Source of the DNA: a virus
Virus record (IMG/VR): IMGVR_UViG_3300031746_000154
Coordinates: 1 to 25,682 of that record
Length of the DNA: 25,682 bases
Reading direction: 5' to 3' (one strand)
The notes under the pieces are model-generated. The model did no database searches, was not told where the DNA came from, and saw only the letters and a list, made by a program, of their open reading frames with translations. How positions within the stretch are numbered: the first letter of the stretch is position 1; each line of letters opens with the position of its first letter. The position numbers and the translations under genes are program-made. Shown here piece by piece: positions 1-25,682 of the stretch.

Positions 1-69
1 CTGCGGAAAATCGAGGCCTTGACAAATCCCGCCGAGTCCGATAAACAGACAGAGAAGGAGGCATTCTGA
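1..69 (+). CDS. C-terminal end of an upstream gene (partial)
   Basis: An open frame enters from the left edge and ends at TGA 67-69, leaving only 22 residues that end in KEAF. The stop overlaps the ATG of the next gene (TGATG), as at other junctions in this tightly packed genome, so I treat it as a real gene end. The visible part is charged and has no recognisable domain. Its position before an SSB-like gene suggests a recombination or replication protein, which is inference from context only. Confidence 0.6.
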   Translation: MRKIEALTNPAESDKQTEKEAF

Positions 70-509
70 TGAGACTACCAGACTACACGCCCGACATCAT
101 CCCCGAAGGCCACTACGACTTCAAAGTGGTCGACGAACCCGAACAGCGCCGGAAGACCTATAACGACAGGAAGACCGGGGCCGAGCGGGAAACTCTTTAT
201 CTCCTCGTCCCGTTCAGCGCCCGCGATTCAGAGACGGGCCGCACGCTCAAGCACCGGGAGGCGTTCTTCACGCACGAGAAGCGCTACAAAGACCTCCTAC
301 TCGCCACGGGCGGCGTTATGAAACCGGACGGGAACATCGAGCCGCCGGACAGCGTCGATATGGTCGGCAAGCGCTTCAAGGCGCGCATCGCTCACGAGGC
401 CGACAAGCGCGACCCGAGCAAGACGCGGGCGCGCATTCAGGACATCGTTTCGCAGTCCGCGCCGGACGAGGACGTCCCGCCTCCCGGCGAGGATGATATC
501 CCGTTCTAG
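69..509 (+). CDS. Single-stranded DNA-binding protein-like (DUF669-type)
   Basis: This 146-residue protein probably coats single-stranded DNA during phage replication and recombination. What is seen: a body with beta-strand-like segments, a basic stretch near residues 100-122 (GKRFKARIAHEADKRD), and an acidic C-terminus ending DEDVPPPGEDDIPF. An acidic tail ending in D-I-P-F is the hallmark of SSB proteins, where it recruits partner proteins. The overall pattern matches phage DUF669 or SSB-like proteins rather than a classical OB-fold SSB that I can align. The start is ATG 69, with AAGGAGG seven bases upstream and overlapping the previous stop. Replication genes follow downstream. The SSB-like role is fairly secure; the exact family is less so. 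Confidence 0.75.
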   Translation: MRLPDYTPDIIPEGHYDFKVVDEPEQRRKTYNDRKTGAERETLYLLVPFSARDSETGRTLKHREAFFTHEKRYKDLLLATGGVMKPDGNIEPPDSVDMVGKRFKARIAHEADKRDPSKTRARIQDIVSQSAPDEDVPPPGEDDIPF

Positions 510-515
510 AACGGG
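500..515. repeat. 16-bp perfect palindrome across the SSB-like stop codon
   Basis: CCCGTTCTAGAACGGG is a perfect palindrome that includes the TAG stop of the SSB-like gene. As RNA it could form a 6-bp stem with a CTAG loop. A run of eight T follows at about 530-537, but about a dozen bases separate it from the stem, so it is not a canonical intrinsic terminator. It could instead be an operator. The palindrome is seen; its function is unknown. Confidence 0.5.
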
Positions 516-562
516 TTCCCTTCCATCATTTTTTTTCTCCAGTTCCGGGGACGCACGACCAC

Positions 563-588
563 GGGGAGGGAGGACGGCCTCCCTCCCC
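563..588 (+). terminator. Strong GC hairpin in the 149-bp spacer, terminator-like
   Basis: GGGGAGGGAGG (563-573) and CCTCCCTCCCC (578-588) form a perfect 11-bp stem with a four-base ACGG loop. Only a short ACTTTCT tract follows, so Rho-independent termination would be weak. It may instead slow RNA polymerase or protect an RNA end. The spacer 510-658 is the longest non-coding stretch in the window. Besides this hairpin and the upstream palindrome it holds a T8 run and GGAAGGG repeats (610-616 and in the next gene's ribosome binding site). I see no convincing promoter in it. Confidence 0.5.
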
Positions 589-658
589 TCTCCGGACTTT
601 CTGGCGGTCGGAAGGGAAGTCTAAGGCAATCTAAAAGACACAGGAAGGGAGGCACGTC

Positions 659-889
659 TTGGCATCACGAACACGTAAAAACGATAAGACTTTCTGGGTA
701 AGCGATTGCTGTCTGGCGCCGACAGAGACAGTCGCTCCGAGGTATCCCGGCTCCATCGAGAGCGGCCCGAACGACCCCGTTGTCATCTGCGCGAAGTGCG
801 GTCGGAGATGCGAGGAGTTCGGCTTGACGCATCGGGCTATCTGTCAATTGAAGAACTCGCTCAAGAGAACGGCAGGCGAATCGCTATGA
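659..889 (+). CDS. Small cysteine-rich, zinc-ribbon-like protein
   Basis: This 76-residue protein starts at TTG 659, preceded by GGAAGGGAGG, a strong ribosome binding site that decides the start. It carries a CC pair near residue 17 and a CAKCGRRC cluster near residues 44-51, which fit four-cysteine zinc binding. The C-terminal third is basic. Small zinc-ribbon proteins of this kind are common in phage early regions, but I cannot assign a partner. Its stop overlaps the ATG of the replisome organiser gene (ATGA at 886-889), so the two are probably translated together. Confidence 0.65.
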   Translation: MASRTRKNDKTFWVSDCCLAPTETVAPRYPGSIESGPNDPVVICAKCGRRCEEFGLTHRAICQLKNSLKRTAGESL

Positions 890-1719
890 GCCGCACGTGG
901 ATAAAGATTTACTGCGACCGATGGATGAAGGGGACGCTCCGCAACGAGACCCCGACGTTGCGCGGCGTATGGATTGACCTACTCACGCTCGCGGGGAGCG
1001 GCGGGTTCGGCTACGACGGGGAAATAAAAATATCCGAGGGCATCGGATTAATGGACGAGCAGATATGCCGGATGTTCCACGTCGATATGGACACGTGGCA
1101 GGCGGCGAAGGCCCGGCTCGTCGAGACGGACAGGATAAAAATAGGGTCAGGCAACACGATAGCGGTCGTCAACTGGAAGAAATACCAGAGCGAGTATCAG
1201 CGACAGCGCCGTTACCGTGTCAAATCTGTAACTAAAAGTTACAGAATAGCAGGCCATCAGGGGCCGCAGGGCAGTCTGGAAGGCGATAACGCAGGCGCTA
1301 AAAAGTGTAACTCTTTACCAGAGTCCGTTACACGCACAGATTTAGATTTAGATGTAGATTTAGAAGAAGAAGTAGAAGTAGTAGGTGAGCGCCGCGCTTC
1401 GCGCTCGTCGGCTCCCTCCGCCGAAGCGACGAAGGAGCCGACCGGAATCGTATTTAATTTCACAAAGAAGGTCTGGGAGGGAATCACGGAAGAACAAAAA
1501 AAGTTCTGGTCGGACGTCTATCCTGCCGTGAACGTCGTCAACGCGCTCAAGAGAATGGCGGCATACTTTGACGCGAACCCGACGAAGCGGAGGACTCACT
1601 ACGGAGCGTTCATAAACAGATGGCTCAGGCGAGACCAAGATAAGGGCGGAGACGTGCGCGGCGTCAGGCCGACGGCCCGTCCCGACTGGATGCGCCGGGC
1701 GAAAGGAGAGAAGGAATGA
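886..1719 (+). CDS. Phage replisome organiser (replication initiator)
   Basis: This 277-residue protein should bind the phage origin and recruit the helicase loader and helicase. The N-terminal 110 residues (DRWMKGTLRN, GVWIDLLTLA, and a region reading as GEIKISEGI) resemble the winged-helix N-terminal domain of phage replisome organisers. The middle is low complexity, with an acidic run DLDLDVDLEEEVEVV. The C-terminal part (near residues 190-265, with W and basic residues) resembles a DnaD- or loader-interacting domain. The frame is open further upstream, but ATG 886 overlaps the previous stop and gives the family-like N-terminus, so I prefer it. The gene also carries origin-like DNA inside it (see separate entry), as lambda O does. 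The role rests on pattern recognition, not on an alignment. Confidence 0.7.
   Translation: MSRTWIKIYCDRWMKGTLRNETPTLRGVWIDLLTLAGSGGFGYDGEIKISEGIGLMDEQICRMFHVDMDTWQAAKARLVETDRIKIGSGNTIAVVNWKKYQSEYQRQRRYRVKSVTKSYRIAGHQGPQGSLEGDNAGAKKCNSLPESVTRTDLDLDVDLEEEVEVVGERRASRSSAPSAEATKEPTGIVFNFTKKVWEGITEEQKKFWSDVYPAVNVVNALKRMAAYFDANPTKRRTHYGAFINRWLRRDQDKGGDVRGVRPTARPDWMRRAKGEKE
1211..1385. other. Candidate replication origin: GTTAC iterons plus AT-rich tract
   Basis: Five GTTAC/GTAAC elements lie within about 120 bp: 1211-1215, 1228-1232, 1238-1242, 1307-1311 and 1327-1331. Two pairs form inverted repeats: TCTGTAAC with GTTACAGA (1225-1232 and 1238-1245, 5-bp spacer), and GTGTAAC with GTTACAC (1305-1311 and 1327-1333). 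An AT-rich, strand-asymmetric run (about 1337-1385, mostly GATTTA and GAAGAAG units) follows immediately and could be the unwinding element. Iterons plus an AT-rich tract inside the initiator gene is the arrangement of lambdoid origins. The elements are seen; origin function is inferred. Confidence 0.5.
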
Positions 1720-2048: not shown

Positions 2049-2256
2049 GATACGCTTTCCGAAGGGCGTGTCGCTCTACGCTCGGGATACCCTAACGCTC
2101 ATCCAGAAGCAAGACGACGAGGCTCCGGTATTCTGGTCTATTCGGCGAGCAGGGGACAAGTCCGCCTCTATCTTCGGAATCTGCGCCACTAAGGGCCGCT
2201 CTCTTATTCTAACGGAGAAGGCGGGCGTCGTCGTTATCGAGGGAGGGACAAAGTGA
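2035..2256 (+). CDS. Hypothetical small protein
   Basis: This 73-residue protein starts at GTG 2035, with GGAGGG five bases upstream and the start inside the end of the previous gene. The sequence reads as alternating beta strands (SLYARDTLTLIQ, PVFWSIRRA, SLILTEKAGVVVI) and is weakly basic, with one cysteine. I recognise no family. Coupling to both neighbours (14-base overlap before, GTGA overlap after) supports it as a real gene. Confidence 0.6.
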   Translation: MRTHRIRFPKGVSLYARDTLTLIQKQDDEAPVFWSIRRAGDKSASIFGICATKGRSLILTEKAGVVVIEGGTK

Positions 2257-2852: not shown

Positions 2853-3279
2853 ATCACTTGACCGCGTGCGGCGTGCGCTAAACGCCGTAGTCGACGGCAA
2901 TCATATGTCCGTTGATAAGAACGGATGGGTATATCTGGAACTCGCGGCGGAGAAGGGCCGCATCAGAAAAATCGGGCAGGTCTACGACCACGCAGAGGGC
3001 GTTGTCTACCAGAAGAAAGTGGAGCAGAAGAACTTCTTTAACAAGCGCCACGGATGGGGGCTGAATGCCGCCGTGCTTTATGCTCTCAAAGACGTGGACG
3101 GCCTCGTTCTGCTCATCTCCGAGAAGGACGACCTGCTCATTACGGCGCGCATCGCCCTCGCCATCGGAGACTGGGGATGGCATAAGAACTCGCCGAACTT
3201 GCCGACGTGCGAGCGGCAGGTATTCGTCAACGAGAAGGACTTCGTGAAGTCCACGCAGTTCGGGAGGAGGGCGAAATGA
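2836..3279 (+). CDS. Hypothetical protein of the replication region
   Basis: This protein has up to 147 residues. GTG 2836 has AAAGGA at good spacing. ATG 2845, three codons in, is the alternative and leaves a smaller overlap with the previous gene. The N-terminal part is helical (SLDRVRRALNAVVDG). The middle has strands and an aromatic segment (KNFFNKRHGWGLN), then a hydrophobic strand (DGLVLLISEKDDLLI). I do not recognise it. It lies between the loader-like gene and RusA, whose start overlaps its stop, which suggests a DNA metabolism role by context only. Confidence 0.6.
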   Translation: MRTMSESLDRVRRALNAVVDGNHMSVDKNGWVYLELAAEKGRIRKIGQVYDHAEGVVYQKKVEQKNFFNKRHGWGLNAAVLYALKDVDGLVLLISEKDDLLITARIALAIGDWGWHKNSPNLPTCERQVFVNEKDFVKSTQFGRRAK

Positions 3280-3890
3280 GCAGGATGGGCGAAGCCTATA
3301 TCAACCTCCTGAACTTGGGGCGGCAAAAGAGCGGCCCGCTCTCCAAAAAAGAAAGATGGGCGGAGGTCGTCATAACCGGAAAGCCGGAAGGAAAGGGCCG
3401 CGCCATCTCAGGCCGCGTCACAACGAAGGCGGGCCGGGCGTTCGTTACGCACAGGACGCCGCGCAAGACTATGACCTATGAGGCCGTCATCCGGTCGGCC
3501 TTCTCGAGCGGATATCCAGACTGGCAGGCGCTCCCTGAATCGTATGTGTTTCTATCGGTCGACGCCCTCTACCCGCCGCCTAAAAAAATTATCGCACGCA
3601 GGGCGTCGCTCATAAAACGGCTAGAAGCGATGAAGGCTAAGGAACTCTCCACGGGCAAGGCCGTCTGGAAGACGGGCGAAGTGGAGGCTATCGAGCGCGA
3701 ACTGACGTTCCAGCGATACTGTCCTGTGCGGCCCGACTGGGACAACGTCGGGAAGATTGTCTGTGACGCCTTGAACGGCGTAGCGTGGCCTGACGACGCC
3801 CGAGTCGTCGACGCTCACGTCGAAAAGTTCTATGCCCTAGACGGGGAAGCGCCGTGCCTTCGCATACGCATAGTGGAGCGTCATATTTAA
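3276..3890 (+). CDS. rusA: RusA-type Holliday junction resolvase
   Basis: This endonuclease of 204 residues would cut four-way junctions in replicating or recombining phage DNA before packaging. The C-terminal region has the RusA signature RPDWDNVGKIVCDALNG followed by PDD: D154, D156, K160 and D164 of the first motif, then D173/D174, matching the acidic metal-binding residues and lysine of the family. The N-terminus has the usual G-K-x-R/T strand pattern and an HRTPRKTMTYEA segment. It is longer than E. coli RusA (about 120 residues) because of an N-terminal extension and a helical insert near residues 105-140. ATG 3276 is chosen because GGGAGGAGGG precedes it and it overlaps the previous stop. 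Confidence 0.9.
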   Translation: MSRMGEAYINLLNLGRQKSGPLSKKERWAEVVITGKPEGKGRAISGRVTTKAGRAFVTHRTPRKTMTYEAVIRSAFSSGYPDWQALPESYVFLSVDALYPPPKKIIARRASLIKRLEAMKAKELSTGKAVWKTGEVEAIERELTFQRYCPVRPDWDNVGKIVCDALNGVAWPDDARVVDAHVEKFYALDGEAPCLRIRIVERHI

Positions 3891-4042: not shown

Positions 4043-4046
4043 TAGC

Positions 4047-4083: not shown

Positions 4084-4091
4084 AGGTCGCT

Positions 4092-4433: not shown

Positions 4434-4446
4434 TAACTGACTCGGA

Positions 4447-5102: not shown

Positions 5103-5476
5103 TTCCGCAATGGATAGGAGAGGCGTCCCTAACACTCGCCGTCGCCGTTGTCATTCTGTTCATCGTCAAGACTCTGGGATGGCGCAAAGAGAAGGCCGAA
5201 CTCAGGGCGCAGGCCGTTACGGAACCGCGAGAGCCGCATACCCCGTGTATTCAGCAACCCGCGATGAGCGATATTATCAAGACGCAGGCGCTCACGGCGG
5301 CAACGGCGGTTCGCACAGAGGTGCTTAGCCAGAAGATAGCCGAAGGGCAAGTGGCGCAGGGCGAACTCCTGAAGCAACTCGTCAGGACTACTAATCTGCT
5401 CGCTCGCTGTGCGGCGCGCTCGTCAAAGGACACCCGAGGGGACGCCATCGCTGACGCCATTGGGGGAGGCGAGTGA
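5099..5476 (+). CDS. N-anchored coiled-coil membrane protein, possible spanin-like
   Basis: GTG 5099 overlaps the previous stop (GTGA), and the resulting 125-residue protein has a membrane segment at residues about 9-23 (LTLAVAVVILFIVKT), then a basic-acidic helix, a Pro-rich turn with one cysteine, and a long helical region rich in Gln, Ala and Leu (near residues 55-105). A single N-terminal anchor followed by a helical domain is the layout of inner-membrane spanins (Rz-like), but no outer-membrane lipoprotein partner is visible, so this is only a possibility. It could equally be a structural scaffold. The frame is open further upstream, but only this start is coupled. Confidence 0.55.
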   Translation: MIPQWIGEASLTLAVAVVILFIVKTLGWRKEKAELRAQAVTEPREPHTPCIQQPAMSDIIKTQALTAATAVRTEVLSQKIAEGQVAQGELLKQLVRTTNLLARCAARSSKDTRGDAIADAIGGGE

Positions 5477-6114
5477 TGGCAAAGCGCGAGATGAAGATGG
5501 AGACGGTCGGCATAAACGACCTGACCCCGAACCCGGCGAACCCGCGCATACTCACAGAGAAGGCCGCAGGCAGGTTAAAAAAGTCCATCGAGCGTTTCGG
5601 GTTCGTGGAACCCGTCATCGCGTGGCGCAAGAAGGACGGCTCGCTTGAGATAGTGGCAGGCCATCAGCGCGTCACAGAGGCGCGGGCCGCGGGACTCAAG
5701 AACATTCCCACGATAATCTTCCCGTTCAAGAGCGAGAAAGAGGCGCTCGCCTATAACATCGCCAGTAACAGGCTCGCCGAGATGAGCGACTGGAACTTTC
5801 CCCTGCTCAAAGACGCCCTCGCAGAACTAGACGACGGCGCGTTCGACGTTGAAGTGACCGGGTTCAATCTGGACGAGATAGAGGGACTGGTCACGTGGGT
5901 AAAGCCGGACATCGACAAGAGCATTGACGAACTGAAGGCCATCGAGGAGAAGTTCAAGCGCGAGAACCCCGGCGGACTTGACCAGTATCTCGTGCTGATA
6001 TTCAGGTTCGAGGACAGAGACGCGTTCGATAAGGCCAAGAAATTCTACACGGCAGACGGCTCTCGCGACTGCGACCCCGCTCTCCTGCTCAAGGCTATGA
6101 AGAATGGCAAGTAA
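5476..6114 (+). CDS. ParB/sulfiredoxin-fold protein
   Basis: This 212-residue protein has the ParB N-terminal fold: INDLTPNPANPRI (residues 12-24), the SIERFGFVEPVIAW helix-strand, and the nucleotide-binding box VAGHQRVTEARAAG (V60-G73; G62, H63, Q64, R65), followed by a YNIASNRLAEM segment. In chromosomal ParB this fold binds and hydrolyses CTP; in sulfiredoxin and related kinases it uses ATP. The C-terminal 100 residues are helical and acidic, not a ParB helix-turn-helix, so plasmid partition is unlikely. Phages often place a ParB-domain protein, usually with a DNA methyltransferase, upstream of the terminase; here the partner is a radical SAM enzyme overlapping by 11 bases. ATG 5476 is preferred over GTG 5473 because it gives better spacing to GGGGAGG. 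Confidence 0.85.
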   Translation: MAKREMKMETVGINDLTPNPANPRILTEKAAGRLKKSIERFGFVEPVIAWRKKDGSLEIVAGHQRVTEARAAGLKNIPTIIFPFKSEKEALAYNIASNRLAEMSDWNFPLLKDALAELDDGAFDVEVTGFNLDEIEGLVTWVKPDIDKSIDELKAIEEKFKRENPGGLDQYLVLIFRFEDRDAFDKAKKFYTADGSRDCDPALLLKAMKNGK

Positions 6115-7513
6115 GCCTGTCGCCTCTCTGCGATACCAGAAGGCGGGCGGCGTATGTAAGGACTGTAACACGTGTGCCGACAAGACTCATTGCGCGCCCG
6201 TGCGTAAGCCGCTCCGTCCCTATGACGGCATCAGGCTGACCGCCGACGGGTTCGACTGCGCCCTGCCCGTGGCTCTGGATAGTCACTCGGTCTGCTCGTT
6301 CAAGTGTCTGTATTGCTTCTCTAATTTTCTGGGCGGTCACGGGCATACTGAAGTAGGGCAGACGCGGCTCAATCGCCTAGAACACGTGCTAATAGGTGAT
6401 AGCAAGGACGAGAAGGTCAAGGCGTTCTGGAAGGCGCTCAAGCGCGACCAGAAGCAACCGTGTCCCCTCCAGATGGGCGCGCTCACAGACCCGTTCGACA
6501 ATATTGAGCGTAATCAGGGATGGGCGCTCGGACTGCCTGCGCTCCTAGAAAAATACCATCAGCCGATACGCGTCTCGACGAAGGGGAAATTGCTTATGCT
6601 CCCTGACTATCTGGATGCGTGGAGTAAGCCTGATTTGGTCTGGGTAGCGTTCAGCCTGATAACGACCGATGACGAACTGCTCGCCAAAGTGGACAGATAC
6701 GCGCCGTCGAGCAAGGAGCGCTTCGCCACGATGAAAGCGCTCTCTGACCGGGGAGTCAGCACGAGTCTGCGCTTCAGGCCCGCCATTCCCGGCATCTCCG
6801 ACTCCACGGCCCGAAAGAAGCACGTCTGGAGAGACCTGATTGACAAGGCCGCCGACGCAGGCGCACGCGCTGTCTCGATGGAAGTGCTGTTCGTGCCGGG
6901 CAAGTTAGAGCCTCACGATATGTTTCACTGGCACGAACTGGAGTCGCTCACGGGTTTTCCCCTCCAGAAGATTTACCGGGAGATAACGCCGCGCTACGGC
7001 GCGTGTATCAGGCCGAGTAAGGCGTGGACGGAAGAACTCTTTCTGGCCTGTCACGAGCGCACGAAGAAGAACGGGATGGCATTCGGCGTCAGCGACCCGA
7101 CGTGGAAGGAACTGAACGACTACGGATGTTGCTGTGGAATCGCTCCCGACGACCCCGTGTTCGGGAACTGGCAACGCGAGAACGCCACGAACGTCGTCGT
7201 TGAGGCCAAGAAGGCTTATGACGCAGGCGACACGCTCAGGGAATGGAGCGCCGCAGACGGGATACCAGAATGGGCAGGTAAAGTCCCTATCCAGTCTATG
7301 TGTATGAACACGGGTATCAAGAGCGTGATGATGCGTCACTACACGTGGAAGGATAAACTGCGCGTCACGTGGAACGACCTGAGAAGCGCACGCGGGCCGC
7401 TGAAATACTTTCAGGGCGTGCTGATGCCCAAGAGAGTTCTGGACGGCGACGTGCGCTATGTCTATAATCCTGTCGCGCATAAGCACGAGAAGACTATCTG
7501 GAAAATAAAGTAA
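6104..7513 (+). CDS. Radical SAM enzyme, SplB/Rv2578c-like
   Basis: This 469-residue protein carries the radical SAM [4Fe-4S] motif C-x3-C-x2-C as C64, C68, C71 (CSFKCLYCF). The following region matches the COG1533 (spore photoproduct lyase-like) pattern: GALTDPFDNIE, a strand with VSTKG, a VWVAFSLITTDDELL segment and RFRPAIPGISD. These enzymes cleave SAM to make a 5'-deoxyadenosyl radical. Two extra cysteine sets exist: C18, C21, C24, C30 before the core, and the triplet C342-C344 with C400 after it; either could hold another Fe-S cluster or zinc. The substrate is unknown. Position between a ParB-fold gene and the terminase suggests a DNA-directed or modification role, which is inference. 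The ATG lies inside the end of the ParB-fold gene. It is not QueE-like, being much longer and differently organised. Confidence 0.85.
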   Translation: MASKPVASLRYQKAGGVCKDCNTCADKTHCAPVRKPLRPYDGIRLTADGFDCALPVALDSHSVCSFKCLYCFSNFLGGHGHTEVGQTRLNRLEHVLIGDSKDEKVKAFWKALKRDQKQPCPLQMGALTDPFDNIERNQGWALGLPALLEKYHQPIRVSTKGKLLMLPDYLDAWSKPDLVWVAFSLITTDDELLAKVDRYAPSSKERFATMKALSDRGVSTSLRFRPAIPGISDSTARKKHVWRDLIDKAADAGARAVSMEVLFVPGKLEPHDMFHWHELESLTGFPLQKIYREITPRYGACIRPSKAWTEELFLACHERTKKNGMAFGVSDPTWKELNDYGCCCGIAPDDPVFGNWQRENATNVVVEAKKAYDAGDTLREWSAADGIPEWAGKVPIQSMCMNTGIKSVMMRHYTWKDKLRVTWNDLRSARGPLKYFQGVLMPKRVLDGDVRYVYNPVAHKHEKTIWKIK

Positions 7514-8095: not shown

Positions 8096-8475
8096 CCGCC
8101 GCCCTGCTCCTATGGCTCTGCCTGTGCCTGCCGGGGGACACGCCCTTCCGCCTGCGCCTGCCCTACCCGCCTGTGCCGCTCATCATCCCGGTCGAAGACG
8201 GGCAAGTTCTGCCTATTCGCGTGCGAAGAGACAGAACTTCTCCGAAGACGGGCGATGTTCTGGGGATTCGCAGGGATTCTGCCGAAGCAGGGAGAACTCG
8301 TCCGAAGACGCAGAACTCGCGCTCTATTCTGACGAGTTCTGGGGATTCTGTTCGAAGACGGCAGAACTTCTCCGAAGACCCGGTTCTTCTGAAAGTTCGC
8401 ACGCCCGGCTCCTCCGTAAGGCCGGGAGTTCGCGGCTCATTCTGTTCGTCTGATGAGCGCGGGAGCGAAGGGTAA
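8092..8475 (+). CDS. Hypothetical protein spanning the terminase repeat block
   Basis: GTG 8092 follows GAGGAGG with a seven-base spacer. The 127-residue protein ends at TAA 8473-8475, sharing a base with the large terminase ATG (TAATG). It has a short hydrophobic start (TAALLLWLCLCLPG), then an Arg/Ser/Pro/Thr-rich, apparently unstructured body. The DNA repeats beneath it are not kept in one frame (the third copy of the composite repeat is shifted), so the DNA rather than the protein appears conserved. It may be translated mainly to carry ribosomes to the large terminase gene. Confidence 0.4.
   Translation: MTAALLLWLCLCLPGDTPFRLRLPYPPVPLIIPVEDGQVLPIRVRRDRTSPKTGDVLGIRRDSAEAGRTRPKTQNSRSILTSSGDSVRRRQNFSEDPVLLKVRTPGSSVRPGVRGSFCSSDERGSEG
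8194..8391. repeat. Repeat block between terminase genes, candidate packaging site
   Basis: AGAACTTCTCCGAAGAC occurs at 8233-8249 and 8363-8379, with a two-base variant (AGAACTCGTCCGAAGAC) at 8293-8309. GAAGAC alone starts at 8194, 8244, 8304, 8354 and 8374, spaced 50, 60, 50 and 20 bp. AGAAC or GTTCT starts at 8206, 8233, 8257, 8293, 8312, 8336, 8363 and 8383. CAGAACTCG (8311-8319) and CGAGTTCTG (8333-8341) form a 9-bp inverted repeat, and GTTCTGGGGATTC occurs at 8257-8269 and 8336-8348. Spacings in multiples of ten suggest binding to one helix face. Small-terminase or pac/cos binding is the leading idea, from position only. Confidence 0.55.
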
Positions 8476-9728
8476 TGGAAGGGCTCGTCTACGAGGCGAC
8501 GGCGCGGCAGGCCGTGTTCCACGCCGCTCCCGAGATGTATAAACTATTCGGGGGAGCGATGGGCGGCGGCAAGACGTTCGCGCTCTGCGCTGAAAGCACG
8601 GCTCTCTCGATTGACTATCCCGGCAATCGAGGCTACGTCTGCCGAGACACCTATGCGTCGTTCCAGCGCACGACGGGAATTGTTCTAGAAGACCTGCTCC
8701 TGCGCTCGGGACAAGTGGCGCGGCATAATCAGAGTCGCAAGTTCTACACGCTCAAGAACGGGTCAACGATATTCTATGGCGGACTGGGCGACGACCTGAA
8801 GCAGATAGACAGGCTCAAGAGTATGGAACTAGGGTTCTTTGCTATTGACGAGGCGAGCGAGACGAGCGAGGCGTTCTTCCTGATGCTCGCGAGCCGCCTG
8901 CGTATCCGCCTGCCGGGGATTCGCTACTTCGGCCTGCTCGCAAGCAATCCCGACCCGGGATGGCTCAAGCGCAGATTCATCGACCAGAAACTTCCGAATC
9001 ACCTGTTCGTCCCTGCCTTGCCGAAGGACAATCCCTGTCTCGCGCCGGGATACGTTGAGCGCCTGCGCGAAGTGTTCCCCGAGGACTGGCAGAAGCGCCT
9101 TATCGAGGGCGACTGGTCAGCGTTCGAGGGACTGAATAGCGTGTTCCCGTTCGGGGCCGTCCAGTTAGCAATGAAGCAATCCCCGACGCGCCATAAGCCT
9201 GTCGAACTCGGCGTTGATGTCGCTCGCTTCGGCGACGACGAGAGTAGCATCACCCTGCGTAAGGGCGACGGCGTCGAGATGCTCTGGACGTGCCGAGGCG
9301 CAGACCTGATGACAACGACAGGCCAAGTCGCACTCGCCATCAAGGAGCATAAGCCGAGCGATGTCAAGGTCGACGCGGATGGATTAGGCGCGGGCGTTGT
9401 CGACAGGCTCAGGGAACTCGGCAAGGAAGTTAGCGAGATACACGGCGGCGGCAGGGCGAACGACCCCGAGCGCTTTGCGAATCGCAAGGCGGAAATCTAC
9501 TGGGGGTTCCGTGAGCGCTTGCTCGCCTGCGAAGTGGCTCTGCCGAACGACTTGGAACTCGCCAGTCAGTTAGCGTCGTGTTCGTATAAAGTGCGTTCGT
9601 CAGGGCAAATAGAAATCACCCCGAAGGACGAGATGAAGCGGCAGGGCGTTCGCTCGCCTGACCGAGCCGAGAGCGTCATCTACGCGTTCGCCGCGCCCGG
9701 CATCGGGCCGCGCATCAGGAGTCTATGA
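8475..9728 (+). CDS. terL: Terminase large subunit
   Basis: This 417-residue packaging motor has an N-terminal ATPase and C-terminal nuclease. Seen: Walker A GGAMGGGKT (residues 26-34), Walker B GFFAIDEAS with D125 and E126, a coupling-type motif ASNPDPGW, and RNase H-like nuclease acidic residues at D248 (GVDVARFGDD), D300/D302 (VDADGLGAG) and D396 (SPDRAESVIYA). Length and motif order are complete, so the gene looks intact. It pumps DNA through the portal into the prohead and cuts it. ATG 8475 overlaps the previous stop; no strong ribosome binding site is needed if translation is coupled. Confidence 0.95.
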   Translation: MEGLVYEATARQAVFHAAPEMYKLFGGAMGGGKTFALCAESTALSIDYPGNRGYVCRDTYASFQRTTGIVLEDLLLRSGQVARHNQSRKFYTLKNGSTIFYGGLGDDLKQIDRLKSMELGFFAIDEASETSEAFFLMLASRLRIRLPGIRYFGLLASNPDPGWLKRRFIDQKLPNHLFVPALPKDNPCLAPGYVERLREVFPEDWQKRLIEGDWSAFEGLNSVFPFGAVQLAMKQSPTRHKPVELGVDVARFGDDESSITLRKGDGVEMLWTCRGADLMTTTGQVALAIKEHKPSDVKVDADGLGAGVVDRLRELGKEVSEIHGGGRANDPERFANRKAEIYWGFRERLLACEVALPNDLELASQLASCSYKVRSSGQIEITPKDEMKRQGVRSPDRAESVIYAFAAPGIGPRIRSL

Positions 9729-11923
9729 TGAACATACTCGACCGCATTGCGACACGGATTCTATCTCGGAAGCAGAGCGAGACCTATCGCGCTCTCTTGG
9801 CTACGGGCGGGAAAGCGCCGATATACACGCCGAAGGACTACGCTCGTCTGGCAGAGGCAGGCTACCAGAACTGCGTGACGGTCTATGCCTGCGCGAACCT
9901 CATTGCGAACTCCGCCGGACAAGTCCCGATTGAACTGTATCAGGGCAACGCGCAGGGTGAGGATGAGGAGATTGAACAGCATCCCATTCTGGACATTCTG
10001 GAGCAACCGAACCCTCTAGTGGGAGGAGCCAGATTCACAGAGACCGCCTGCCTATATGAACTGCTCGCAGGCAATTCCTTCGTCGAACGCGTCGGCCCTA
10101 ACAACGGGCCGCCGAGAGAACTCTACACGCTCCGTCCCGACCGAATAAAGGTCGTGCCGGGAACCGTCGCCGAACTAATAGGCGGGTATGAATACACCGT
10201 GAACGGCGCTGTCACGACGCTGGAGGCGAATAAGATTCGTCACCTAAAAAGGTTCCACCCGACGAACGACTGGTATGGCCTGTCGCCGTTGGAAGTAGCG
10301 TCGAAGGGCATAGACATTCAGAACTTCGCTCAGGACTGGAACTCGCGCCTGCTCGTGAACGACGCCACGCCACGCGGCGCGCTCAAGGTCGACGGGATGC
10401 TCTCCGACGAGCAGTTCAAGCGCCTGCGGCGGCAAGTGCGCGCACAGATAAACGGTCTCGAGGGCGACTCGAACTGGCTCTTGCTTGAAGGCGGAACGGA
10501 CTGGAAGCAATTCGGCCTCTCCCCGAAGGATATGGACTGGCTCAAGGCAGACGAAGTCAACACGCGCAAGATATGTTCTGTGTTCAAAGTAGCGCCGGAA
10601 CTCATCGGCGACAGCGCGAACAAGACATACAGTAACTATCAGGAGGCGCGCAAGGCGCTCTATCTGGAGACCGTCCTGCCGTGGCTAGACTGGTATCTCA
10701 GCGAAATGAGCGCGTTCCTGTGTCCCTTGTTCGGCGAGGGAATGTATCTGGCCTACGACAAGGACAGCATCGACGCGCTTCAGGAAGACCGTTCTCAAAT
10801 CTACACGAGGCTCGCCTCGGCTTACTGGCTCTCCCTGAACGAGAAGCGCGTTCAATGCGGATACGATGAAGTGGACGGCGGAGACGCGATAATGGTCCCC
10901 GTCGGCCTCGTCCCATTCGAGGGCGGACTCCCGCCGACCGAGCCGACTCAGGAAGAACTCGACGCCGAAGCGCAGGCGCAGGCCGACTCTGATGCGGCAA
11001 GCGCACAGGCGCTCGCGCAGGGCAAAGAGCCTGCCGAGGAAGACGGCTCGCAGGCGGAAGGGCAGGCCGAGGAAGACGGCGGAGGCAAGAAACCTCCCAT
11101 CCCTCCGAAGAAGGGCAAGGGGATACTCTGGGCAGACGCCGTTCGCAAGGGAGCGAAAGTGGCTCACTTTGAACTGCGCGTCAAGGCTCGTGAGCGCAGT
11201 CTCACGCCCATCGCAGAGAAGTTCCTGCGCGAGCAGGGCGCACGCATCGTTAAGAATATTCGCAATCTGCCGAGCGTGAACGCACGCGGCGGCATCACGT
11301 TCAGCCCTAAAGACGAGGCGCAGAGATGGCTCGACAAGTCCTACGCGTTCTATCGCGAGGCAGGCGAGCGCGCGATGGAGATGGGACTCGCCGCCACGAA
11401 GGGCGAACTGCCTGAAATAAGTATGAAGGCGAACCCCGGTCAGGTGATAAACTTCACGCGCAAGAACGACGCGAAACTCAAGAAGATGATTCTTTATAGC
11501 GGCACGAAGATAGCCGACACGACGATGAGCGAAGTGATGGACAGTCTGGAGCAGGCCGAGACAGAGAACTGGACGGTCACGGCAACGGCGGAGTTCATTG
11601 CTGAGCGCATCGACGAGGGCATCGCGTGGAAGGCCCGGCGCATCTCGCGCACAGAGACGGCGAAGGTCGAGAACTGGGGAGAGTTGGAAGGCTACAAAGA
11701 GGCCGAGTTCGTGGACGGCAAGGGATGGCTCTGCGCCTTCGTGGAGACGAGCAGGGAAGCGCATAAGAAGGCGAGCAACGACTACGAGGCGAACCCGATT
11801 CCCCTTGATGACCCGTTCGTTGTCGACGGCGAGACGATGATGTATCCCGGCGACCCGACGAGCGCCTCCCCCGGCAACGTCATCAACTGCCTCTGCGCGT
11901 TGTATCCCGAAGTGCTAAAGTAG
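9725..11923 (+). CDS. Portal protein fused to a MuF-type head morphogenesis domain
   Basis: This 732-residue protein combines two functions usually carried by neighbouring genes. Residues 1-400 are a HK97-type portal (YQNCVTVYACANLIANSAGQ, QHPILDILEQPNP, TYSNYQEARKALYLETVLPW, DWYLSEMSAFLCP). Residues about 402-465 are a Glu/Ala/Gln-rich linker ending in Lys/Pro. Residues about 470-732 are a Mu gpF-like domain ending with the typical W-x-C-x-F...R-x-x-H segment, DDPFVVDGETMMYPGDP and NCLCALYPE. The portal forms the dodecameric DNA channel at one capsid vertex; MuF domains are ejected or help in head assembly. The frame is continuous with no sign of sequence error at the junction. ATG 9725 overlaps the terL stop. 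Confidence 0.9.
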   Translation: MMNILDRIATRILSRKQSETYRALLATGGKAPIYTPKDYARLAEAGYQNCVTVYACANLIANSAGQVPIELYQGNAQGEDEEIEQHPILDILEQPNPLVGGARFTETACLYELLAGNSFVERVGPNNGPPRELYTLRPDRIKVVPGTVAELIGGYEYTVNGAVTTLEANKIRHLKRFHPTNDWYGLSPLEVASKGIDIQNFAQDWNSRLLVNDATPRGALKVDGMLSDEQFKRLRRQVRAQINGLEGDSNWLLLEGGTDWKQFGLSPKDMDWLKADEVNTRKICSVFKVAPELIGDSANKTYSNYQEARKALYLETVLPWLDWYLSEMSAFLCPLFGEGMYLAYDKDSIDALQEDRSQIYTRLASAYWLSLNEKRVQCGYDEVDGGDAIMVPVGLVPFEGGLPPTEPTQEELDAEAQAQADSDAASAQALAQGKEPAEEDGSQAEGQAEEDGGGKKPPIPPKKGKGILWADAVRKGAKVAHFELRVKARERSLTPIAEKFLREQGARIVKNIRNLPSVNARGGITFSPKDEAQRWLDKSYAFYREAGERAMEMGLAATKGELPEISMKANPGQVINFTRKNDAKLKKMILYSGTKIADTTMSEVMDSLEQAETENWTVTATAEFIAERIDEGIAWKARRISRTETAKVENWGELEGYKEAEFVDGKGWLCAFVETSREAHKKASNDYEANPIPLDDPFVVDGETMMYPGDPTSASPGNVINCLCALYPEVLK

Positions 11924-12889: not shown

Positions 12890-14026
12890 TTGGAACAAGA
12901 AATCAAAACACTCACGGGTCTCGTCGGTGAACTCCGGCTGAAGTTCGAGGACTTCGAGAAGGGGCGGCTGACCAGAGCCGACTTCGACGAGTATAAGGGC
13001 AAGGTCGGCAAGGACATCGACGACATCCAGACGAAACTCAATCGTCCGCCCGTCCCGGCGCAGGTCGTCGTCAAGGAAAACGGCCCGAGCGTCGAGATGA
13101 AGGCGTTCGAGAAGATGAACCGGAGAGGCCCGCAGAACCTCAACGCCGACGAGGTGAAGGTTCTCCAAATCGGAGACCAGACCCTCGGCGGATACCTCGC
13201 GCCCGGCGAATACGTGCGCGAGATTATCAAGGGCATCATTCTCTACTCGCCGATGCGCTCCTACGCACGGGTGAGGACGACAACGGCTTCGTTCATCGAA
13301 ATCCCGAAGAAGACGGGAGCGTCCACGGCGAAGTGGACGTATGAGAACGAGGCCAAGACCGAGACCACGGGCATCGCCTTCGGAATGGAGAAACTCGAAC
13401 CGCAGGAAATGTATTCCCTCTATAAGGCGTCGAAGAAGTCGCTGGACGACAGCGCCTTCAATCTGGAAGAAGAAATCCGTCTCGACGCGTCGGAACAGCA
13501 AGGGAAACTCGAAGGCACGGGATTCATCACCGGGGACGGCATCGGAAAGCCGGAGGGGATTCTCTCGAACGCCGCGCTCATCACCGCGAAGGTCGCGGGC
13601 GCGGGCGGGTCGGGAGTCCTCGGAGTTGCCGACATCTTCGCGCTCCATTACTCTCTCCCCGCAGTCTACGCGCAGAACGGCGTATGGCTGATGAACAGAC
13701 TGACCGAGAAGGCGTGTATGCTCCTGAAGGACACGAACAATTTCTATCTCTGGATGCCTTCTCTCGCTACGGGTCAGCCGTCGACCCTGCTCGGCAGGCC
13801 CATCGCCAGCACGCCGGATATGCCCGACATCGCGGGCGGCGCGTATGCGATGGCATTCGGAGACTTCCAGCGAGGCTATACCATCGTCGACAGACAGGCG
13901 ATGGAACTTCAGCGCCTCGTGGAACTCTATGCCGAGGCCGGGCAAATCGGGTTCATCGTGAACCGTCGCGTCACGGGCAGAGTTACGCTGTCCGAGGCAA
14001 TCAAGATTCTCGCCATCCAGTCCTAA
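12890..14026 (+). CDS. Major capsid protein, HK97 fold
   Basis: This 378-residue protein forms the icosahedral shell. The start is TTG 12890, set by AAGGAG with an eight-base spacer; no nearby ATG fits. The first 65 residues are helical and charged (delta-domain-like scaffold, likely removed by the protease). HK97-type features follow: TLGGYLAPGEYVREIIKGI (N-arm to core), an E-loop region with EIPKKTGASTAKWTYEN, ETTGIAFGMEKL, SKKSLDDSAFNLEEEI, GDGIGKPEGIL, LLGRPI, AMAFGDFQRGYTIVDR and a C-terminal FIVNRRVTGRV. No accessory insertion domain is evident. Confidence 0.95.
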   Translation: MEQEIKTLTGLVGELRLKFEDFEKGRLTRADFDEYKGKVGKDIDDIQTKLNRPPVPAQVVVKENGPSVEMKAFEKMNRRGPQNLNADEVKVLQIGDQTLGGYLAPGEYVREIIKGIILYSPMRSYARVRTTTASFIEIPKKTGASTAKWTYENEAKTETTGIAFGMEKLEPQEMYSLYKASKKSLDDSAFNLEEEIRLDASEQQGKLEGTGFITGDGIGKPEGILSNAALITAKVAGAGGSGVLGVADIFALHYSLPAVYAQNGVWLMNRLTEKACMLLKDTNNFYLWMPSLATGQPSTLLGRPIASTPDMPDIAGGAYAMAFGDFQRGYTIVDRQAMELQRLVELYAEAGQIGFIVNRRVTGRVTLSEAIKILAIQS

Positions 14027-20322: not shown

Positions 20323-20331
20323 TAGCAGGGA

Positions 20332-20784: not shown

Positions 20785-21035
20785 GGCGAGCGCAGAACCC
20801 GCCGGAGATGAGCGATGCCGACTTGGATGCGTGGAACTTCTACACGGGCAATGCGACGGTCTTCGTCCGCGACTTTGGCCTTATGCCTGAACTCCTGCGC
20901 GGCAAGGGTCACGAGGGAGCAGAGAAGGAACTCTTTATGAATAAACTCGCCGTCATCCACGACGGAGTCCTAGAGGCTACGCGCTCTAATGGCCGCAGGG
21001 ACTCCGACCCCGACCTCCTAGAAGGAGACCTGTAA
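20712..21035 (+). CDS. Tail assembly chaperone, -1 frame extension (gpT-like)
   Basis: After a -1 shift at the slippery site the ribosome reads CTG at 20712 and continues for 107 codons to TAA 21033-21035, giving a fusion of about 234 residues with the upstream protein. Codons between the slip and ATG 20748 are open and code RRFLLWFADYG-like residues. ATG 20748 has no ribosome binding site, so independent translation is unlikely. The extension is acidic and helical (SDADLDAWNFYTGNATV, AEKELFMNKLAVIHDG), as in gpT-like domains that contact the tail tube. The tape measure ATG overlaps its stop. Confidence 0.85.
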   Translation: MRRFLLWFADYGMVCDWSAVGEGSGRAQNPPEMSDADLDAWNFYTGNATVFVRDFGLMPELLRGKGHEGAEKELFMNKLAVIHDGVLEATRSNGRRDSDPDLLEGDL

Positions 21036-23437
21036 TGGCTGACATTAAATTCGTCGTCAGCGTCGATGCCGAAAAGGGAACGGCAACGATGGCTCGATTC
21101 ACAGCCGAGGTCAAGAAATCCGGTGACGCGGGCGCGGGCGCGGGCGCTCAGCACGCAACGGCGGCAGGCAAGGTCTCCGGCCTGTGGAAGGAAATGGCTA
21201 TCGGGCAGATGGTCGCGCAGGGCGTGAACAAGACCTTCCGCGCGATGAAGGACTTCTTGGGCGACAGCGTGAAGGCCGCTACCGAGGCCGAGGACTCGCA
21301 GAACGCGCTGAAGGCCGCTCTGGAAATCACGGGCCGCTCCGTAGAGGGCAACACAGAGGCGTATAACGACTTCGCCGCCGCGATGATGAAGGAGACGGTC
21401 TACTCAGATGAGGCCGTTCGAAGCGCGGCGACCCTGATGCTCCAACTCACCGACCTCGACCAGAAGGGCGTTCAGCGCGCCATCAAGGGCGCGGCGGGCC
21501 TTGCTACGACTATGGGCATCGACCTGAACAGCGCGACCCGTATGGTCACGAAGGCGATGGAAGGCCAGACGACCGCCTTGCGCCGGGCCGGAATTATCGT
21601 GGACGAGAATCTTCCGAAGGAACAGAAACAGGCGAAGATGATGGAGGAGTTGGATAAACTCTATGCTCGTTCCACGGCTGAAGTAAAGTCGATGGGCGGT
21701 CAACTGAAGCAGGTCGGGAACTACTTCGACGAGGTGAAGGAAGGCGTCGGCGGAGCCATCGTCGGCAATGAGGATTTCCGAAAGATGGTCAAGTCCCTGA
21801 GCGAGGGTCTTATCAAGTTCGTGGACAGCGATAAGTTCAAACTCTGGCTCTCGGCCCTCACCGAAGTCATCGGCTCGGTCATAAAGTTCTTGGGCGGTCT
21901 GGGCAAGGCCGTCGTTGACGTAGAGAACAGGTTATTCGGCGCTAAGGGATGGGACGACTACGTCGCCACTCAGGAGAGGGTGAACGGCATTATTCAGGAA
22001 GGCATCAACGTCCAGACGTTGCGCCGGAAGGTCATCGACCAAGACATAATGACCGGGCAGGAATGGGCGAAGGCGCTGAAGGGCGTCGGATACAGTCACG
22101 CCGAACTCGTCAAACAAATCAAAGAGGGGAAGTTCGGTGAGGTCGCTCAGGCGGCGTTCACGGAACTCAAGACTGGGACTGTCGCGGCGAAGGCCGCTAT
22201 GGACGGGGCGAAGCCTGTCATCAACGAGACGGGCAACGCCCTGAAGGCGGCGGCAGAGAAGGCGTCAGCGCTGAAGGGTGAACTCAAACTCGTATTCGCC
22301 ACGGAAGTCCGTGACGAGATAGCGCAAGTTGAAGAAGCGATGCGGCTCTTTCAAGGGCAACTCTCCCCGAAGTCTGCGGGGGAATTGAAGACGAAACTCG
22401 ACGACCTGCGTGCCTCTCTCAAGGGCAACGAGACGGAGGCCGAGGCCGTCGAGCGCACGTTTAAAGAAGTCGGCATCAGGACGATACCGGAGATGGCTCA
22501 GCAAGCGGGCATCCTGTTCGCCGCGATGAGGCGGCTCGACGAGGAGTTCAAGGCCGGGAAGGTCGACGTCAACGAATACAAGGTCAAGACGAAATTACTG
22601 AACGATAAACTCAGCGATACCGCCGTCCTCGTCACGACTCAACTGCCGAAGTCCACGCGTAACTTACAGGCCATCTGGAACGCGTCTATGGGAAGTATGA
22701 ACTTGACGACAGGCGCGTTCACGACTAAGGCTCGCATCGACTTCGTCGCTCTCGGAGAGAAGTGGGGAGTGACGATGGGGAAGATAAAGGCGAACTGGGA
22801 TTTGGTCAGCGGGCAGATGAACGCCGTCTTTCAGCAGGCGCAGACGAACAAGGAAATCGGCATAGAGAACGAATACAAAAAGCGACTCGACTATATCAAC
22901 AAGACCGTCACCGACGAGGACGCGAAGGCGAAGGCTATCACCGCTCTGGAAGCAGAGTTCGAGATTCGCCGCACGAGCGCTCGGCGCGCAGGCGCGAAGC
23001 AACAAAAAGTATTCGGCATTATGAGCGCCATCATAAACACGGCAGAGGCGTTCACGAAGGCGCTGACTGCCGGGCCTATCATCGGGCCTATTCTGGCGGG
23101 CCTTATAGCGGCGATGGGCGCTGTCCAGATATCGCTCATTCGCTCTCAGCCGATACCGATGGCGAAGGGCGGCGTCTTTATGAGGCCGACGCAGATGCTC
23201 TCGTCAACGGGTCAGTCGTTTGAGTTCGGCGAGGGCGGAGAGGCGGAGATACTATCGCCGGAGAGCAAGATGCGGCAGGTCTTCCGCTCGGAACTCAGCG
23301 CGGGCGCACGCGGCGGAATGAAGACGGACGTGCGGGTCTACATAGGCGAGCGCGAGATAGAGGACTTCGTTGTCCGCACCGTGAACAAGAACCTGAAGGC
23401 ACGCCGCATACTCGTGCCGGGGGAGAGCCTGATATGA
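21035..23437 (+). CDS. Tape measure protein
   Basis: This 800-residue, mostly helical protein sets tail length and helps DNA entry. It begins with a strand (IKFVVSVDAEKG) and long Ala/Lys/Glu-rich helices. The NALKAALEITGRSVEGN segment, AATLMLQLTDLDQKGVQRAI, GLATTMGIDLNSATRMVTKAM and ALRRAGIIVDENLPKEQK match the TMP N-terminal core of siphophages. Hydrophobic stretches occur near residue 280 (VIGSVIKFLGGLGKAVV) and 675-705 (ALTAGPIIGPILAGLIAAMG). At about 0.15 nm per residue the tail would be near 120 nm. The ATG overlaps the chaperone stop (TAATG) after GAAGGAG. Confidence 0.93.
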   Translation: MADIKFVVSVDAEKGTATMARFTAEVKKSGDAGAGAGAQHATAAGKVSGLWKEMAIGQMVAQGVNKTFRAMKDFLGDSVKAATEAEDSQNALKAALEITGRSVEGNTEAYNDFAAAMMKETVYSDEAVRSAATLMLQLTDLDQKGVQRAIKGAAGLATTMGIDLNSATRMVTKAMEGQTTALRRAGIIVDENLPKEQKQAKMMEELDKLYARSTAEVKSMGGQLKQVGNYFDEVKEGVGGAIVGNEDFRKMVKSLSEGLIKFVDSDKFKLWLSALTEVIGSVIKFLGGLGKAVVDVENRLFGAKGWDDYVATQERVNGIIQEGINVQTLRRKVIDQDIMTGQEWAKALKGVGYSHAELVKQIKEGKFGEVAQAAFTELKTGTVAAKAAMDGAKPVINETGNALKAAAEKASALKGELKLVFATEVRDEIAQVEEAMRLFQGQLSPKSAGELKTKLDDLRASLKGNETEAEAVERTFKEVGIRTIPEMAQQAGILFAAMRRLDEEFKAGKVDVNEYKVKTKLLNDKLSDTAVLVTTQLPKSTRNLQAIWNASMGSMNLTTGAFTTKARIDFVALGEKWGVTMGKIKANWDLVSGQMNAVFQQAQTNKEIGIENEYKKRLDYINKTVTDEDAKAKAITALEAEFEIRRTSARRAGAKQQKVFGIMSAIINTAEAFTKALTAGPIIGPILAGLIAAMGAVQISLIRSQPIPMAKGGVFMRPTQMLSSTGQSFEFGEGGEAEILSPESKMRQVFRSELSAGARGGMKTDVRVYIGEREIEDFVVRTVNKNLKARRILVPGESLI

Positions 23438-24204
23438 CGCGCATACGCTTCGTCTACTACAATCTCTGGCAGAAGTATCCCGTCCTAGCGCGCTCAAGCG
23501 AGCATCCGCAGTTCCCGGCGGAAGAAACGCAGAACGATTCTCGGCAGTTCTTTTTCCGCTCGAAGTATGTGTCGGCGGGCGGTTCGCTCACGCAGAACAT
23601 AGACATCGACCTCGGCGTGGCGCAGGAGTATAACTTCGTCGCCGTCTTTGACCATAACGTGTCGTCGGGGAACACGGAGTTCAAGGTCTACGGCGCAGAC
23701 AACTCAGCGTTCTCGACGAACGTGGTCAGCGACACTATCACGTGGTATGCGGGTTCCGCGTTCGTGTTCTTGGGAACTGCCCGCACGAAGCGCTACATCC
23801 GCATCAAGGTCAACGACACCGGGGCCGGAACGAACTACATTCAACTCGGGAAGATTGTCGTCGGCAAGTATTTCGAGCCGAGCCGGAACTTCGTGAAGGG
23901 ATATCAGGACGGCTACGAGGACTTCAGCGAAGTGGAGTTCTCCGACTCGATGATGATGAGCGCGCTCCAGCGCCCTAAGCCGCGTGCGTTCGAACTGCCG
24001 TTCAACGGCGTCGACGACGCCTCTGCCGCAGGGTTCATAGCCATCCTAAACGAGTGCGGGCAGGGCGCACCGTTCGTCATCTGCCGCGACACAGCGAACC
24101 CGAACACGAACTCGTTCCTCGTCCGTCTCGATGGCTTGAACTATCCGCAGAACACGGGGCCGGGCCGATGGGACTGGGATGCCTCTCTCAAAGAGGTTCT
24201 GTAA
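23434..24204 (+). CDS. Distal tail-like protein, beta-sandwich domain
   Basis: This 256-residue protein follows the tape measure, the usual place for the Dit (distal tail) protein that starts the tail tip. It has a beta-sandwich stretch with F5/8-discoidin-like character (EYNFVAVFDHNVSSGNTEF, KRYIRIKVNDTGAGTNYIQL), then a conserved-looking C-terminal half (FVKGYQDGYEDFSEVEFSDS, FVICRDTANPNTNSF). An ATGA overlap joins it to the tape measure gene, after GGGGAG. Binding of a surface sugar is possible but not shown. Function by position is moderate. Confidence 0.6.
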   Translation: MTRIRFVYYNLWQKYPVLARSSEHPQFPAEETQNDSRQFFFRSKYVSAGGSLTQNIDIDLGVAQEYNFVAVFDHNVSSGNTEFKVYGADNSAFSTNVVSDTITWYAGSAFVFLGTARTKRYIRIKVNDTGAGTNYIQLGKIVVGKYFEPSRNFVKGYQDGYEDFSEVEFSDSMMMSALQRPKPRAFELPFNGVDDASAAGFIAILNECGQGAPFVICRDTANPNTNSFLVRLDGLNYPQNTGPGRWDWDASLKEVL

Positions 24205-25682
24205 ATGACCGCTCCTTCAAATCTCATAGCAACGGCGCTAGACAGCGACCGCATAAAACTTCAGTGGACTCCCGGCAACGACTACCAGTTCACGCTCATC
24301 GAGCGCTCAGCCGACGGCGGGTCGAACTACGCGCAGATAGACTCTATCCGCGGATACCAGACTTCTTACACCGACGACACGCCGCAGGACGGCAAGGAAT
24401 ACTACTACCAGATTCGCGGATATGCCGTAGAGCCGGAGGGATGGACTTCCTACTCGAACGCAGACAGCGCCATAACGCCGAACACTACGCCCGGTCTGCT
24501 GACCGGGACGTGTATCTCGCCGACTCAAATCAAACTGGACTGGTATGACCAGAGCGCGAACGAGACCGGGTTCAAGATTTACAAGGATGGCGCGTATCTC
24601 GATGTCGTCGGCGTGGGAGTCCAGACTTACACGGCAGGCACTCTCACTAGCGGTCAGTATTATAAGTTCAAGGTTCTGGCCTACAACTCTGTCGCTCCCG
24701 ATAGCGGGTTCTCGAACGAGGTCGAGGTCTTCACCTACGACCCGCCGAACGCGCCGTCAAATCTTGAGGCCGTGGCGGCATCGACGACTCAGTTGAATCT
24801 TTCTTGGCAGGACAACTCCGAAAACGAGCAGGACTTCCATATCGAGGAGAGTAGCACGGGGCCGTCCAGCGGGTTCAGCGAGGTCGCGATAGTCGGAGCA
24901 GGCGAGTCGGCATACCCGCGCACGGGCCTAAGCGGAGGGACGCAATACTGGTATCGCGTGAGGGCGCATAACACTAGCAACTACTCAGCCTACTGCGCCG
25001 TCGCTTCGGGCATCACGCAGGGAGCCGTCGCTAAGCCGGGGAACGTCCAGTTATTCAGCGCGAAGGGAACTGACGTCGAGATAATCTTTCAGGACAATTC
25101 CTCTGACGAGGACTATCACAGCATCGAGCGCAAGACGGGCGCAGGCAGTTACGCAGAGATAAAGCAACTCGAACCGAACCGGACTTATTTCAAAGACACG
25201 GGCCGCTCGCCGGGCGATGTCTGCTACTACCGGATTCGCGGGAAGCAAGGCGTCGTCTGGTCAGCATACTCGGACGAGGTCAGCATCACGACGCTCACTA
25301 CTCCCGCGACTCCGACGGGCCTCGCTGTCAGCGAGCAGGCCGACACGTGGCAGAGGCTCGCGTGGAACGCGAGCGCGGGCGCGCAAGGCTACGTTATAGA
25401 GCGCTCTCTGAACGGGTCTTCTTGGAGCGCCTATCTCACGATACAGCGTGGGGACGTGCTAACTCTTAAAGCGCAGGGCTTGAGCGCGGGAACGATTTAC
25501 TACTGGCGAATCTCAGCCTATAACGGCAACGGGACAAGCGCCGCCTCGTCGTCCGCGAACAGCACGACGGCGGCGGAATACTCCGAGAGCGCGTTCGAGC
25601 GCTACGCACGGCGAGCGAACCTGAATCTCGTCGTCCTGATTGAAGTGAATCCCCTAATCGAACTCGGCGGGTTCACGCTCAC
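24205..25682 (+). CDS. Tail tip/fibre protein with fibronectin type III repeats (partial)
   Basis: An open frame starts at ATG 24205 (AAAGAGG upstream) and runs off the right edge, giving 492 visible codons. It consists of about five fibronectin-III-like domains of 85-95 residues, each with a W at the second strand (LQWTPGND, LDWYDQSANETGF, LSWQDNSENEQDF, IIFQDNSSDEDYH, LAWNASAGAQGYV), an I-E-R/E-S strand, a Y-x-D/T turn, and a final YYY-x-I-R-x-Y/A-x-N strand. After the last domain (FERYARRANLNLVVLIEVNP) a new domain begins. Such repeats are typical of tail tip or side fibre proteins that touch the host surface. The 3' end lies outside the window. Confidence 0.85.
   Translation, partial: MTAPSNLIATALDSDRIKLQWTPGNDYQFTLIERSADGGSNYAQIDSIRGYQTSYTDDTPQDGKEYYYQIRGYAVEPEGWTSYSNADSAITPNTTPGLLTGTCISPTQIKLDWYDQSANETGFKIYKDGAYLDVVGVGVQTYTAGTLTSGQYYKFKVLAYNSVAPDSGFSNEVEVFTYDPPNAPSNLEAVAASTTQLNLSWQDNSENEQDFHIEESSTGPSSGFSEVAIVGAGESAYPRTGLSGGTQYWYRVRAHNTSNYSAYCAVASGITQGAVAKPGNVQLFSAKGTDVEIIFQDNSSDEDYHSIERKTGAGSYAEIKQLEPNRTYFKDTGRSPGDVCYYRIRGKQGVVWSAYSDEVSITTLTTPATPTGLAVSEQADTWQRLAWNASAGAQGYVIERSLNGSSWSAYLTIQRGDVLTLKAQGLSAGTIYYWRISAYNGNGTSAASSSANSTTAAEYSESAFERYARRANLNLVVLIEVNPLIELGGFTL

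Follow-up and report, generated by a model that had tools for sequence, protein, structure and literature searches.

Gene content of the window

The DNA analysed here, called the window throughout, is a stretch of 25,682 bp that comprises positions 1 to 25,682 of the IMG/VR virus record IMGVR_UViG_3300031746_000154. IMG/VR classes it as lacking end repeats, and a search for contigs extending it at either end found none. All window genes lie on the plus strand (Table 1). Terminase, portal, protease, capsid and tape measure proteins, which speak for a dsDNA phage, are all present, and judged by its sequence the window is a fragment of the genome of an uncultured tailed dsDNA phage. Shine-Dalgarno-like AGGAGG or GGAG motifs stand upstream of many genes and would fit a bacterial host, without proving it. 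Neither a methyltransferase domain nor a restriction-like nuclease was found among the scanned window proteins, which cover most but not all small ORFs of an incomplete genome. The ParB_N-domain protein aligns only with the first ~150-180 of the 436-633 positions of methyltransferase models and carries no methyltransferase domain.

Table 1. Features of the window and positions of single remaining sites.
Feature	Position	Strand	Basis
Site-free region	1..25682	.	no GATC, CATG, AGCT, TGCA, GTAC, CCWGG, GCWGC, RCCGGY; counts and codon-shuffle null
Phage replisome organiser-like protein	886..1719	+	PF09681, E 2e-6
RusA-like Holliday junction resolvase	3276..3890	+	PHROG 140, E 1e-23, match via longer ORF 3207-3890
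ParB_N-domain protein	5473..6114	+	PF02195; PHROG 498 positions 27-184; PDLC03229 positions 8-153
Radical SAM phage protein	6104..7513	+	PF04055, PHROG 13321
Terminase large subunit (TerL)	8475..9728	+	PHROG 2, E 4e-37
Portal protein, C-terminal head-morphogenesis domain	9725..11923	+	PHROG 2662, E 5e-99, and PHROG 2468
Head maturation protease	11933..12877	+	PHROG 80, E 2e-53
Major capsid protein, TTG start	12890..14026	+	PHROG 10, E 2e-69
Tape measure protein	21035..23437	+	PHROG 1506, E 3e-6
Sole remaining GGWCC (GGTCC)	10894..10898	.	
Sole remaining YGGCCR (TGGCCG)	20990..20995	.	
Sole remaining GGYRCC (GGCGCC)	715..720	.	outside called genes
Remaining CASTG, 1 of 2	6926..6930	.	other at 24262

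Missing words and the level at which they are lost

The original prediction stated that five palindromic tetramers are absent from this DNA. GATC, CATG, AGCT, TGCA and GTAC indeed have 0 copies each in the 25,682 bp and, as palindromes, on both strands. Base composition gives an expectation of about 91 copies each, in agreement with the roughly 90 that had been estimated; the G+C content is 59.5% rather than ~58%. The palindromes named as present were all found on counting, and the quoted examples of codon choice read in the sequence as described. A second-order Markov model expects 113 GATC, 80 CATG, 65 AGCT, 52 TGCA and 38 GTAC in the window. Within genes, 60 codon shuffles with protein and codon use unchanged lead to expectations of 97, 69, 89, 30 and 59 copies in the same order, and 60 stricter shuffles that also keep the base after each codon lead to 102, 49, 65, 22 and 52. 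The lowest count of any tetramer in any shuffle was not below 12, and the Poisson chance of the five being jointly absent is about 1e-126. The check proposed with the prediction, a comparison of 4-mer counts with Markov and codon-shuffled models, thus places the zeros far from chance. Other tetramers are kept, with 334 copies of GCGC (292 expected) and 28 of CTAG (48 expected).

While the five tetramers were named correctly, the list was incomplete: CCWGG, GCWGC, GGWCC, CASTG and many 6-bp palindromes are likewise purged. Each of the odd palindromes has a near twin that occurs at its normal frequency. CCWGG is found 0 times against 48-57 expected and its twin CCSGG 75 times against 71; the corresponding numbers are 0 against 51-63 for GCWGC and 171 against 164 for GCSGC, 1 against 42-52 for GGWCC and 64 against 62 for GGSCC, and 2 against 18-19 for CASTG and 21 against 21 for CAWTG. 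Among degenerate 6-bp words, observed and expected counts in the genes, by the codon-shuffle null, are 0/41 for RCCGGY, 1/42 for YGGCCR, 4/61 for GDGCHC, 0/31 for GGYRCC, 0/19 for GKGCMC and 0/16 for CCWWGG. Individual 6-mers are bimodal, with CGGCCG (0/13.5), GCCGGC (0/14), TGCGCA (0/11), CCGCGG (2 copies) and CGCGCG (3 copies) on the purged side and GTCGAC (18/18), CACGTG (13/12) and AGCGCT (18/26) on the normal side.

A greedy motif search, in which each purged word was added to the constraints of the null before the next one was sought, returned GATC, AGCT, GCAGC/GCTGC, GTAC, CCAGG/CCTGG, CATG, GGACC/GGTCC, YGGCCR, RCCGGY, GGYRCC and YCCGGR as its first words. TGCA, GKGCMC, CGCGCG, CTCTTC, GWGCWC, CASTG, CCGCGG and CCWWGG came later, intermixed with non-palindromic words that we did not count because they may be limits of the null. 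A cautious tally is at least eight 4-5 bp specificities at 0 or 1 copies and probably around fifteen specificities in all.

Some further words deviate from expectation. CTCTTC/GAAGAG, which is the asymmetric site of the Type IIS enzyme EarI, occurs 2 times against about 23 expected, at 8225 and 15836 and in the same orientation. Milder depletions of CCAA, CCACC, GCCCC and TCWGA concern words that match no known Type II site, and these depletions may stem from limits of the null; TCWGA has 24 copies against about 77 in the Markov model and against 48-50 once the other purged words are constrained, and is thus partially depleted. TGCCA is found 0 times against 10 expected and its reverse complement TGGCA 26 times against 26, and TCGCCC is found once and GGGCGA 27 times. 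This strand asymmetry possibly represents avoidance on a single strand, as is the case with Type III sites, or an effect of codon use.

The original prediction also held that the selection is synonymous, a view borne out by two observations. Where relatives carry sites of the purged type in residues identical to those of the window, 0 of 249 are kept in the window, compared with 218 of 671 control palindromes, and the about 2 kb of non-coding DNA hold no sites, although about 45 copies of the 4- and 5-mers would be expected there. Codon shuffles, non-coding DNA and the conserved-residue test therefore agree on a depletion at the level of DNA and not of protein or codon choice. Host codon usage, dinucleotide bias or mutation bias might instead have produced the pattern without any selection on the sites themselves, and dinucleotide frequencies are unusual in the window (CC 0.69, TC 1.45). 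However, shuffles that retain protein, codon counts and codon-junction bases still yield 22-102 copies per tetramer, the non-coding DNA is empty too, and relatives with homologous proteins have other sets. The shuffles rule out this explanation unless mutation were biased against precisely these palindromes as whole words, and we regard it as extremely improbable.

The geometry of the purged words is narrow. As a class, 6-bp palindromes occur at 0.29 of expectation, palindromes with three-base arms and a spacer of 1 at 0.78, and those with spacers of 2-10 at about 0.9-1.0; mirror repeats are not depleted. The depletion is limited to palindromes with spacer 0-1, a limit that is typical of orthodox Type II recognition and rules out the formation of hairpins as the cause. 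A general counter-selection against palindromes, acting through hairpins, cruciforms or structure-specific nucleases and not through sequence-specific restriction, would agree with the low frequency of the 6-bp class, but inverted repeats with spacers of 2-10, the better hairpin formers, are normal. GCGC and GTCGAC are moreover untouched, and odd palindromes with identical arms meet opposite fates depending on whether their centre is W or S. Since GTCGAC, CACGTG and AGCGCT are normal and GCCGGC and CGGCCG are absent, such counter-selection is ruled out as the sole cause, and we give it very little credence overall. The missing words read as known recognition sites: each of the four purged odd 5-mers is a listed enzyme site, a status that 10 of the 32 classes have (P 0.006), and so is each of the five tetramers. 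A few purged words, such as CGCGCG and TCWGA, lack a listed enzyme.

Relatives and candidate hosts

Relatives were sought with TerL as the query, and 80 viral contigs were kept; searches with the tail and radical-SAM proteins gave no further relatives. An 11-kb contig (L001, from IMG/VR taxon 3300032053), 99.7% identical to the window, shows the same five tetramer zeros, which argues against an assembly artefact. Window and L001 differ at 30 positions, and L001 is still without all five tetramers. A random substitution creates one of the five in 9% of cases, so that about 2.7 new sites would be expected over the 30 differences, which are too few to decide the matter and are clustered in one region. 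Most of them lie at 15768-16011, near the start of an ORF (15613-17175) that encodes repeats of SDTGAG-like motifs, and this suggests that 15768-16011 is a variable segment.

Other relatives, at 60-68% TerL identity except for the more distant L016 and L021, lack different words. L005 has purged AGCT, CATG, CCWGG, GCWGC and nearly GCGC and keeps 69 GATC; L009, L010 and L024 have purged CTAG; L016 and L021 have purged GATC; and L002, L007 and L081 have purged none of the tetramers. The 41 comparison contigs that reach 9 kb or more have at most 5 purged motifs, and 19 of them have none; the window has 15. These contigs differ in length and the shorter ones offer less power, yet the 11-kb L001 still scores 13.

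In L003 (positions 1-5339; TerL 65% identical), CG is found 16 times against 364 expected, evenly spread, with no CGN arginine codon in the TerL and portal ORFs, and AAC/GTT 4 times against 67. Restriction systems that recognise 2 or 3 bases are not known to us. Four portal relatives (L098, L100, L101 and L102) have purged GANTC, with 0-1 copies of each form, which suggests exposure to a HinfI-type system.

The phage might itself encode site-specific nucleases directed against host DNA and lack the sites in order to spare its own genome. Such a nuclease would also lead to complete loss, and the window is part of the genome only. However, the scanned window proteins include no restriction-like nuclease, fifteen specificities would require many such enzymes, and the sets differ among relatives. 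We therefore consider this origin highly improbable.

The sole close relative in the bacterial genome set is L081, a contig of an Aminicenantes MAG (TerL 65% identical) on which bacterial-looking genes adjoin the phage relative. The 396 genomes of the phylum of this MAG contained no other close match. The link to an Aminicenantes host is weak, because it is possibly a matter of binning and because L081 avoids none of the purged sites. DNA methyltransferases are scarce in the MAG and in 39 of its relatives (0-4 PF00145 and 0-7 PF01555 matches each), and therefore a single host of this kind would not explain the purged list; the host searches linked no cognate restriction enzyme to the phage. 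If the host is Aminicenantes-like, the enzymes would have been met across a population, with no single strain carrying all of them.

Comparison with known viruses and probable escape from restriction

Site avoidance is an established anti-restriction strategy that is nearly confined to orthodox Type II sites, and complete or nearly complete elimination has been described for about a tenth of surveyed viral genomes (PMC6286503). The near elimination of orthodox Type II sites in dsDNA phages at large is also what is seen in the window. HF1-group haloviruses lack CTAG and GATC, one of them also AGCT and most of them GGWCC, and twenty-one 6-bp palindromes are absent from all (PMC7230728). For Hardycor1, three tetramers and 22 motifs of six bases are described as missing (PMC7911831), and its authors also noted a near-loss of the non-palindromic CAGC, CATC and CCAG (PMC7911831), for which we count 1/101, 7/214 and 11/93. 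In haloviruses the pattern has been interpreted as evasion of restriction (PMC7230728, PMC7911831).

When 25.7-kb pieces are scored identically, 21 motifs are purged in HF2, 19 in HRTV-7, 15 in the window, 12 in Hardycor1 (best piece) and 7 in HCTV-1. Cyanophages and a Helicobacter phage were considered as possible equals and rejected with 0-3 motifs purged. In expected copies of the purged 4-5 bp words the window is highest among the scored viruses (526, against 314 and 288). Like the window, HF2 and HRTV-7 lack several palindromic tetramers, CCWGG, GCWGC and many 6-bp palindromes. In contrast to it they are archaeal and have purged CTAG, which the window keeps at 28 copies, and they have completely purged two or three tetramers, compared with five. 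Hardycor1 shares with the window the absence of AGCT, TGCA and many 6-bp palindromes, and it is tailed with a similar order of structural genes; unlike the window it has purged other sets (CTAG, CTCGAG, GACGTC). With regard to the HF1 group, we found neither homologous core genes nor an absence of CTAG in the window. A TerL search of 50,697 phage records gave matches that were all below 60% identity, and the 30 matches listed, at 23-37%, included no halovirus. Since HF2 and HRTV-7 are about as extreme by the same scoring, the window adds to an already known phenomenon. The strategy is known, and the window is among its most extreme cases, in a virus group unrelated to the haloarchaeal viruses.

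CCWGG, GCWGC, GGWCC and CASTG are purged in HF2 too. The simplest reason for these shared 5-mers is that they are listed Type II specificities, although the coincidence is worth remembering. Together with the GATC that the unrelated HF2 also lacks, and with CGCGCG and TCWGA purged without a listed enzyme, the sharing could point to one or a few defences of loose recognition other than restriction, for example linked to methylation or phosphorothioates, that select against a group of short palindromes. Yet the purged list reduces to no one simple rule, the sets vary among relatives, and the shared 5-mers are themselves Type II specificities. Such a defence seems very unlikely to us.

We consider it highly probable that the loss of sites is an escape from numerous orthodox Type II systems met across a host population. 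The fit rests on the confinement to spacer 0-1 palindromes, on the known Type II specificities and on the differences in purged sets among relatives; the tie to restriction itself is an inference. The original prediction named several four-base restriction systems as the cause. Restriction fits, while four-base sites are too narrow a description, as 5-bp and 6-bp specificities are involved. On this model of restriction escape, entering phage DNA would be cut wherever a site lacks the mark of the resident methyltransferase, and genome copies without such a site would survive more often. In a host population with different restriction systems, losses would accumulate over many generations until the sites are gone, while protein sequences would hardly suffer. 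Relatives would have different sets because each phage line met a different collection of enzymes. A stronger version, in which a single host lineage or one broad palindrome-recognising defence imposed ~15 or more short-site specificities at once, and the phage group preserves so accurate a record of the local repertoire that its missing words amount to a list of the enzymes met, is in our judgement unlikely.

Extreme multi-site purging is thus not peculiar to haloarchaeal viruses. The window also tests how many sites can be purged without protein change, around fifteen here with no visible protein cost. Missing words in a phage genome may be seen as a fossil record of the defences met, and from an uncultured group in which each member lacks a different set, the restriction specificities in an unknown host population should become predictable.
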